Part shown: positions 30,807 to 46,119 of the stretch, in pieces
Layout of the letters: each line of letters opens with the position of its first letter
Numbering within the stretch: the stretch's first letter is position 1
DNA from: Candidatus Saccharimonadota bacterium
Lineage (GTDB): Bacteria; Patescibacteriota; Saccharimonadia; Saccharimonadales; Saccharimonadaceae
Assembly (NCBI GenBank): GCA_030528025.1
Contig: JAUMZP010000004.1
Location: forward strand, 1-48,918
Direction: 5' to 3'
DNA length: 48,918 bases
The notes under the pieces: generated by a model
Told to the model about the DNA's origin: nothing
Seen by the model: only the letters and a program-made list of their open reading frames with translations
The model's database searches: none
Program-made: the position numbers and the translations under genes

Positions 30807-31247
30807 ATGAGTAGTCTTACAAAATACAATCCATTTGAGGAATTGCGCGCATTGCAGCGGCAGCTGTTTGATAATCCCTTTACCACGACACTCAGCCAAG
30901 CTGTCACAGCCGATGTCTACACAGTGGATAATACACTGGTTGTTGAAGCACACGTGCCAAACTTTGCCGAGGAAGACCTCGATGTAAGCCTTGACAATGG
31001 TGCGCTCGTCATCCGCGGCGAACGGCACGAAAAAACCGAGGACAAACAGCGCAACTACGTCGTTCGTGAGAGCAGCACAAGTTTCTGCCGTCGTGTACAG
31101 GTACCAGATGGTAGCGATGTTGAGCAGATTAAGGCCCATCTAGAGGACGGTATCTTGAGGGTAACGGTACCACTGAAGCCATTACCTGCGCCGCAAAAAA
31201 TTGCCGTCAAGAAAATAGCCAAGCACGATAAGAAAACAAAAAAGTAG
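30807..31247 (+). CDS. Small heat-shock protein, Hsp20/alpha-crystallin family
   Basis: The 146-residue protein has a short N-terminal region (KYNPFEELRALQRQLFD), an alpha-crystallin domain (about 30-125; DVYTVDNTLVVEAHVPNF to HLEDGILRVTVPL, with the conserved G-x-L) and a basic Lys-rich tail. It holds unfolding proteins in solution. TAAGGAGG lies 6 nt before the ATG. It is a single-gene unit. No CIRCE element is present here, in contrast to clpP. Confidence 0.95.
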   Translation: MSSLTKYNPFEELRALQRQLFDNPFTTTLSQAVTADVYTVDNTLVVEAHVPNFAEEDLDVSLDNGALVIRGERHEKTEDKQRNYVVRESSTSFCRRVQVPDGSDVEQIKAHLEDGILRVTVPLKPLPAPQKIAVKKIAKHDKKTKK

Positions 31248-44145: not shown

Positions 44146-44754
44146 CTATTTTGCGTTTGCGCGCTGGCCAATCACTTCATCGGCTAGGCCATACGCCACG
44201 GCATCTGCGGCACTCAGCCAGTAGTCACGCTCCATGTCAGCCTTGATTTTATCGAGTTTCTGGCCAGTGTTGTCTGCCATAATGGTGGCCAGCCGCTCCT
44301 TGAGGGCGATACTCTCGCGTAAGCTAATTTCTTGGTCTGTCACTTTGCCGCGTGTACCGCTGCTAGGCTGGTGGATCATCACGCGGGCATTGGGCAGAAC
44401 AAAGCGTTTGCCCTTCGCACCGCTACTAAGCAAGAAGGCACCCATGCTCGCCTGCAGACCAATACCAATCGTCTGTACATCCGGCGCGATGTATTGCATC
44501 GTATCGTAGATTGCGAGACCGTCATACACACTGCCACCAGGGCTGTTGATATAGAGCTGGATGTCTTTGTCTGGATTTTCATTGGCAAGATGGAGCAGCT
44601 GCGCGACAACGACATTGGCTGTCATCTCAGTCACTTCTTCGCCGAGGAAGATAATGCGATCCTCGAGCAAACGTGAGTATATATCATAGCCACGCTCACC
44701 ATCACGTGTGCGGACGATGACGTTGGGCACTAGGTAATCATTCGGTTTCATCAT
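44146..44754 (-). CDS. clpP: ATP-dependent Clp protease proteolytic subunit
   Basis: The 202-residue serine protease has the [10 protein letters not shown] oxyanion segment, the nucleophile in [19 protein letters not shown], the catalytic His in MIHQPSSG and a downstream Asp in the usual place. It forms the chambered tetradecamer fed by ClpX or ClpC. It is the only clear clpP in the window. The ATG lies 6 nt after TACAAT, so translation is predicted leaderless. A perfect CIRCE operator overlies its promoter, implying control by HrcA. Confidence 0.97.
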
Positions 44755-44760
44755 AGTACT

Positions 44761-44802
44761 ATTGTAACGAGAAAGTTAGCACTCGTCAATATAGAGTGCT
44801 AA
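44761..44802 (-). promoter_or_regulatory. clpP promoter with perfect CIRCE operator
   Basis: TTAGCACTC (44776-44784), 9 bp, GAGTGCTAA (44794-44802) is an exact match to the HrcA operator CIRCE. On the minus strand TTGACG (44789-44784), 17 bp, TACAAT (44766-44761) forms the promoter. The -35 lies in the centre of CIRCE, so HrcA would block polymerase directly. Confidence 0.95.
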
Positions 44803-44829: not shown

Positions 44830-46119
44830 CTACTTCTTAGTATTTTGCGCCACCAGCCAGTCGATCGTCTTCTCTGTCAAGAGGCGGTTGGCAATCTCGT
44901 GCTGCACTTCTGGCTCATCAAAGCGCGCCACCATAGTTGCATCATTGGCATACTGTTGCTTAAAGGCACTGATGCGCTCTTGCAGTTCCTCCGCTGTGGC
45001 TTCGATCTTCTCGGCCTTGCTCAACTCAGCCAGGACAAGCCCAGCCTTAATGCGCTCATCGGCCGCTGGCTTAGCCTCCTTCTCGATCCACTCGTCTTTG
45101 TCCTTATATTCCTTCTCGGCAAGGTACTGCTCAAGGGTGCGACCGCGGTGAGCAAGGTTCTGGACCAAGTCTTGCTCAATTGAGCGAAGCTGATCGGCCC
45201 GTAATACCTCCGGAATGGCTACCGTGCTGGCATCAGCCAACTGCTTGACGGCTACGTCGCGCAGCTCGTCATCTGCTTCACGCTGCTTTTGCGCGGTAAT
45301 TTCTTTCTCGATATCTTTCTTGAGATCTTCAATAGAGGTAAATGGCCCAACCTTTGCAGCAAACTCATCAGTCAGCTCAGGCAGTGTCACTTTCTTGACC
45401 TTCTTAATGGTCGTATCAAAGACGACTGCTTGCCCGGCTAGTTCGCTCGCATGGTAATCCTTTGGGAAGGTGAGTTCAACCGCCTTTGTTTCACCAGCCT
45501 TGAGGCCAATCAATGCCTCTTCGAAGCCTGGAATGAATGACTTGCTGCCGAGTACAAGCGGATAATCTTTCCCGGTGCCACCAGCAAAAGGCGTACCATC
45601 GCGCTTACCGACAAAGTCAATCGTTACCTCGTCACCATCCTGAGCTGCTTCATCAGTGTCCATACGCTCAGCCATGCTGTGGCGAATCCGGTCAAGGATC
45701 TCCGTTACTTCTTCTGGCGTAACGGTTATCTTCGCTGGCTTGAGCTTGAGTTTCTTATAGTCACCAAGAGTAATCGTGGGCATAACCTCTGCCTCAGCAG
45801 TAAACTCCAGCTCACTACCAGGCACAAACTTTTTAATCTCCACTTCTGGGCGCTCAAGCACCTGCACATCACTCTCGAGGAAGGCTGCAGCAACTGCTTT
45901 GCTCAGGGCGTTGTTAAGCGTCTCCTCGGCGAGGTGTTCTGGATTGGTATTCTTTGCAACCAACTCGAGCGGGGCATGACCCTTGCGGAAACCATCAACT
46001 TTAGTCGTCTTGGCGAGTTTACGCAAAGCAACCTGGCGAGCTGCCTCCAGTTCGTCTGCACCGACGGTAATCGTGGCGCGTACTTTGGTGTCTGATAGGT
46101 GGTCTAGTGTCGTCTTCAT
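44830..46119 (-). CDS. tig: Trigger factor
   Basis: The 429-residue chaperone has the ribosome-binding N-terminal domain with GFRKGHAP (about 43-50, the signature loop), an FKBP-type peptidyl-prolyl isomerase domain (about 158-240; IDFVGKRDGTPFAGGTG to FPKDYHASELAGQAVVFD) and a long helical C-terminal domain. It binds nascent chains at the exit tunnel. tig precedes clpP, as in many bacteria, though clpX does not follow. The ATG lies 8 nt after TACAAT. The protein has no cysteine. Confidence 0.97.
   Translation of the reverse strand: MKTTLDHLSDTKVRATITVGADELEAARQVALRKLAKTTKVDGFRKGHAPLELVAKNTNPEHLAEETLNNALSKAVAAAFLESDVQVLERPEVEIKKFVPGSELEFTAEAEVMPTITLGDYKKLKLKPAKITVTPEEVTEILDRIRHSMAERMDTDEAAQDGDEVTIDFVGKRDGTPFAGGTGKDYPLVLGSKSFIPGFEEALIGLKAGETKAVELTFPKDYHASELAGQAVVFDTTIKKVKKVTLPELTDEFAAKVGPFTSIEDLKKDIEKEITAQKQREADDELRDVAVKQLADASTVAIPEVLRADQLRSIEQDLVQNLAHRGRTLEQYLAEKEYKDKDEWIEKEAKPAADERIKAGLVLAELSKAEKIEATAEELQERISAFKQQYANDATMVARFDEPEVQHEIANRLLTEKTIDWLVAQNTKK

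Follow-up and report, generated by a model that had tools for sequence, protein, structure and literature searches.

The clpP gene of this Saccharibacteria genome, encoding the proteolytic subunit of the Clp protease, is preceded by an exact CIRCE element which, judging from its sequence and its genomic setting, very probably works as an HrcA operator and brings clpP under regulon-wide heat-shock control. The operator is real and ordinary in kind, and behind it stands an HrcA regulon, found widely across the order, to which the Clp protease belongs. HrcA/CIRCE is textbook heat-shock control, of the type that acts on dnaK and groESL in Bacillus subtilis. The argument is built on the operator itself, the promoter geometry, the presence of hrcA, the list of sites in the genome and their conservation in relatives, each of which was observed directly.

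Results

An exact CIRCE element upstream of clpP

The window, by which we mean the whole stretch of 48,918 nucleotides that was analyzed, contains tig and clpP on the minus strand, separated by a gap of 75 nt in which a perfect CIRCE is found. This element, TTAGCACTC-N9-GAGTGCTAA, is 27 bp long and has no mismatches. The features discussed are as follows.

44776..44802, no strand assigned: CIRCE operator TTAGCACTC-N9-GAGTGCTAA, from pattern match and genome scan
44784..44789, minus strand: -35 box TTGACG; its first five bases are the end of the CIRCE spacer and its sixth is the first base of the arm
44761..44766, minus strand: -10 box TACAAT, separated from the -35 by 17 nt and from the ATG by 6 nt
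44146..44754, minus strand: clpP, ATP-dependent Clp protease proteolytic subunit, 202 aa (NCBIfam and Pfam); mRNA predicted leaderless
44830..46119, minus strand: tig, trigger factor (NCBIfam), upstream of clpP on the same strand, with no CIRCE of its own
30927..31208, plus strand: hsp20 match, small heat-shock protein, with no CIRCE

The initial annotation had described an exact HrcA operator on clpP with the -35 box at its center, within 44761-44802, a range that runs from the -10 box through the far end of CIRCE. Both parts of this description hold. The -35, read from 44789 to 44784, has its first base at position 14 of the operator's 27, inside the spacer, and clpP lies downstream of it. 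The ATG of clpP occupies 44754-44752, and a transcription start 7 nt past the -10 would hit its A. The encoded protein scores 257.9 bits against PF00574 (cut-off 20.2) and 291 against PRK00277 (NF001368; cut-off 249), and falls below the equivalog cut-off of TIGR00493 (277.8 versus 308.6).

This is the one CIRCE match with up to three mismatches in the window, where 100 shuffles gave a mean of 0.04. Base composition predicts about 7e-7 exact matches for the window and 1.4e-5 for the genome, and a reversed control pattern was found nowhere in the genome. Chance origin of the clpP element was thereby ruled out. Because the clpP site is the sole CIRCE in the window, the hsp20 match and tig lack one, as had been noted initially.

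The HrcA regulon of the genome

The genome to which the window belongs (1.03 Mb in 15 contigs, 98.6% complete) contains eight CIRCE sites with up to three mismatches. From reading of the surrounding DNA and protein scans, their targets are hrcA-grpE, dnaK (two sites), groES-groEL, dnaJ, a clpB-like gene, a clpC-like gene and clpP. Since the eight sites lie at chaperone, Clp and hrcA genes, clpP is part of a wider HrcA regulon. The initial annotation had presented clpP as the target in place of the classical groESL and dnaK, which is not what the genome contains, and clpP as a lone target was rejected. The names clpC-like and clpB-like are our own designations. The clpC-like protein has Clp_N and AAA domains and a UVR motif (Pfam), and its best NCBIfam score, 857.9, is for ClpB with a cut-off of 1232.1; the clpB-like protein reaches 1142.4 against the same cut-off. 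Two partial matches to ClpX (27.1 and 18 bits, cut-off 370.75) are all that was found of it in the genome, a full ClpX being absent from the matches, and since both fall far below the cut-off, the clpC-like protein is inferred to be the likelier partner of ClpP. There are two hsp20 matches in the genome, including the copy in the window.

The best-scoring -35 begins in the spacer at six of the eight sites. At groES, TATACT inside the operator could serve as a -10, while of the two dnaK sites the second is downstream of the promoter belonging to the first.

HrcA is known from some organisms to co-regulate targets of CtsR, as stated in sections of PMC3842655, which also cites work on Streptococcus salivarius clpP (Chastanet and Msadek, 2003). 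As its title has it, that clpP is likewise an HrcA target and is dually regulated, with CtsR and HrcA both acting. By this precedent HrcA could share clpP here with a second heat-shock regulator, whether CtsR, ClgR, an HspR-like protein or an alternative sigma factor; we consider this unlikely, as unlike the streptococcal case no match to CtsR (PF05848) was found in the genome by a search whose control matched in Lactococcus lactis.

A compact HrcA-family repressor

A genome search for hrcA and for further CIRCE sites had been proposed initially, with a missing hrcA gene as the refutation of HrcA control. The gene is present, behind its own CIRCE, at L014:3048-3755 (G000 C3:111622-112329), and its product exceeds the cut-offs of both PF01628 and PF03444. 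The latter, the winged-helix domain (29.7 bits, cut-off 21), aligns by sequence to residues 16-92 of the HrcA structure 1STZ. Against the NCBIfam hrcA equivalog TIGR00331 the protein scores 177.5 bits where 197.2 are required, the model having 338 positions and the protein 236 aa; it is therefore named here a compact HrcA-family protein. The short length is shared by 11 relatives (231-248 aa), the 1STZ chain of 338 residues being about 100 aa longer.

HrcA has an inserted dimerising domain. The AlphaFold model of the present protein (pLDDT 87.7) superimposes on 1STZ with a Z of 22.9 and an rmsd of 2.3 over 227 aligned residues, spanning chain residues 15 to 332. Thus about 96 of the 323 resolved residues of 1STZ are without a counterpart, nearly all of them internal. 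By this predicted model the protein has the HrcA fold.

Conservation of the clpP operator in relatives

Of 195 genomes drawn from the class, 184 gave a ClpP match and 189 an HrcA match. Within the order, the DNA upstream of 90 clpP places was surveyed for CIRCE with up to four mismatches, in 89 genomes including our own, and the element is present at 83 of the places: 39 perfect, 20 with one mismatch, 21 with two, two with three and one with four, leaving seven places with none. At 71 of the 90 places tig was found no farther than 1.5 kb upstream of clpP and on its strand, and CIRCE is present at all 71; in 43 of these, no more than 400 nt separate the end of tig from clpP.

Four of the seven exceptions (G054, G067, G119 and G133) belong to one genus, g3, in which clpP sits behind clpC (L136, L137, L138 and L144). 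The two genes are adjacent in G054 and G133, and an ORF of about 328 aa lies between them in G067 and G119. CIRCE precedes clpC in G054, G119 and G133; in G067 it is found where the start of clpC is expected, as located by position. The other three exceptions, G050, G085 and G140, have neither a clpP CIRCE nor an upstream clpC, the upstream DNA of G085 being only 460 nt long, and they count against the reading of the site as a working operator. Six more genomes (G047, G128, G052, G067, G073 and G162) were checked by position only. CIRCE lies 46 nt before the clpP match in G047 and G128, and in the g3 genomes G067, G073 and G162 it lies 2.5-3.5 kb upstream of clpP, which fits the clpC-clpP order. 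G052, which lies outside the 90-place set, has by position no CIRCE near clpP, another point against the operator reading.

The same is true of the patchiness beyond the order, where among 28 genomes of the class the site (up to three mismatches) is present in 10 and absent in 18, and of the scarcity there of TTGAC in the spacer, seen at two of the 10 clpP sites. In favor of the operator reading, CIRCE within 500 nt was found at none of 79 named clpP loci of other groups, four of which have shorter upstream DNA.

It could be argued that the element is a relic, an inherited site at a clpP no longer regulated by HrcA, given that the site is lost at three of the 90 places and that two genomes bearing CIRCE are without a detected HrcA (see below). 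We regard this as highly improbable, since the arms are kept, with 80 of the 90 places at two mismatches or fewer, while the spacers vary widely, and since CIRCE precedes clpC where clpP follows that gene.

The -35 box within the operator

At 79 of the 83 clpP sites of the order, the -35 of the best-scoring promoter starts in the spacer, most commonly at operator base 10 (28 sites), 12 (23) or 14 (21). The promoter scorer placed the -35 outside the spacer at the remaining four and gave odd start distances at a few sites. TTGAC occurs in the spacer 55 times directed toward clpP versus none in the opposite direction among the 83 sites, and TTG 77 versus nine times, although these counts are not independent because the sequences are related. 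One register of the fused element (up to one mismatch) was found in nine of the 10 genomes of the class and five of the 135 others in a 145-genome draw of the phylum.

The initial annotation had also taken the clpP mRNA to be leaderless. By position this fits 48 of the 83 sites, where 6-7 nt lie between the -10 and the start codon; the other sites differ, many having longer leaders.

A different arrangement is seen before groES in G175, G119 and G116 (L217, L240 and L257), where the last C of one arm is replaced by T and TTGCAA continues from the arm. Promoter and operator may trade off at these groES sites.

The position of the element between two codirectional genes also suits an RNA hairpin, one that mainly ends or processes tig transcripts or that does so as a second job beside the operator. 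A run of at least four T occurs within the 10 nt after the clpP CIRCE at 34 of 83 sites, among them 27 of the 43 from the family part of the set, versus 13 of 55 CIRCE at other targets; these T-runs are found after the clpP CIRCE at L016-L045 and L126-L185. Since T-runs are commoner after the clpP CIRCE than at other targets, a second job as tig terminator is possible in relatives. For the site in the window we consider the hairpin quite improbable, as it has no T-run after it (CTTTCTCGTT), the same sequence precedes dnaJ, hrcA, dnaK, groES and clpC, and the spacer retains a -35 directed toward clpP.

The regulon in relatives

Across 15 genomes searched with tblastn, 56 of 59 CIRCE sites precede HrcA, DnaK, DnaJ, GroES-GroEL, ClpC, ClpB or ClpP. 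In three g3 genomes DnaJ was matched by its C-terminal part only, and the frame after CIRCE opens, by eye, with a J domain. Of the remaining three sites, one is a perfect CIRCE that lies 74 nt before an hsp20 gene in G041 (L219:1105-1627), in contrast to the hsp20 match of the window. In G130 (L246:1601-2684) a one-mismatch CIRCE lies before a gene for a DUF308 protein and one for an FKBP isomerase, a locus that is a possible extra HrcA target, and in G041 (L221) one CIRCE is without a clear target.

Two g3 genomes, G133 and G162, have five CIRCE sites each, yet neither Pfam nor a clade HrcA profile detected an HrcA in them, which counts against HrcA control. The clade profile, run without a positive control, gave no matches in the five genomes lacking a Pfam HrcA. 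These two genomes may have a gap in the assembly, an HrcA that has diverged, or a different repressor.

Discussion

Taking operator and regulon together, we favor control of clpP by HrcA and infer for binding, repression, heat induction and start site the following sequence of events. In unstressed cells, HrcA sitting on CIRCE would cover the clpP -35 and block RNA polymerase. Repression by covering of the -35, as originally suggested, is supported by the presence of hrcA and by a conserved site with a built-in -35, both of them features of the DNA. As misfolded proteins build up, HrcA would lose its activity; in B. subtilis, HrcA is inactivated when help from GroEL is short. clpP would then be transcribed, beginning on the ATG or beside it, and the clpC-like and clpB-like genes, dnaK, dnaJ, hrcA-grpE and groESL, all with this operator, would be derepressed jointly with it. 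Through the CIRCE at hrcA the repressor would also repress its own gene. Since the operator lies upstream of the clpP start, it would be absent from mRNA made from the clpP promoter, and control would be exerted at transcription. RNA reading through from tig would carry CIRCE as a hairpin.

HrcA/CIRCE is a known system and clpP as an HrcA target has precedent; the Saccharibacteria form is a variant that we have not found in print. It shares with the B. subtilis type the operator, the repressor family and the core targets hrcA-grpE, dnaK, dnaJ and groESL. Unlike that type, the regulon here adds clpP and the clpC-like and clpB-like genes, has a -35 that starts inside the operator at six of eight sites, and is served by an HrcA about 100 aa shorter than 1STZ. 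Another comparison is with the Mollicutes, whose reduced genomes have CIRCE before lon and clpB as well as before dnaK or dnaJ genes according to sections of PMC5138195 and PMC4245973; no clpP target is seen in those sections, whereas the protease here is ClpP. Streptococcus thermophilus clpP is heat-induced, and the two CIRCE of that genome both lie elsewhere than at clpP, as reported in part of PMC3192767. For the Saccharibacterium TM7x, the main text of PMC10768705 reports, in the parts drawn on here, that most chaperones are higher during the initial encounter and that TM7x_03020, predicted to be a clp protease gene, is higher in recovery, and it does not contain the term HrcA; the timing of chaperones and clp therefore does not speak for joint control there. 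Among open-license papers we found no literature on HrcA in Saccharibacteria, TM7 or the candidate phyla radiation, which is no proof of absence.

It is important to consider what such an arrangement could mean for these organisms. The Saccharibacteria (TM7) are ultrasmall and live on other bacteria. We regard as evenly poised the broader proposal that in this group a compact HrcA is the single master regulator of protein quality control, covering the Clp protease and the chaperones through a fused element of operator spacer and -35, and that in one genus a clpP without its own operator keeps this control by sitting behind a CIRCE-bearing clpC. A joint regulon of chaperones and Clp protease would yield a short, testable list of stress genes. 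In addition, an operator with a built-in -35 and a start codon 6-7 nt past the -10 would provide a sequence rule for finding promoters in Saccharibacteria genomes.
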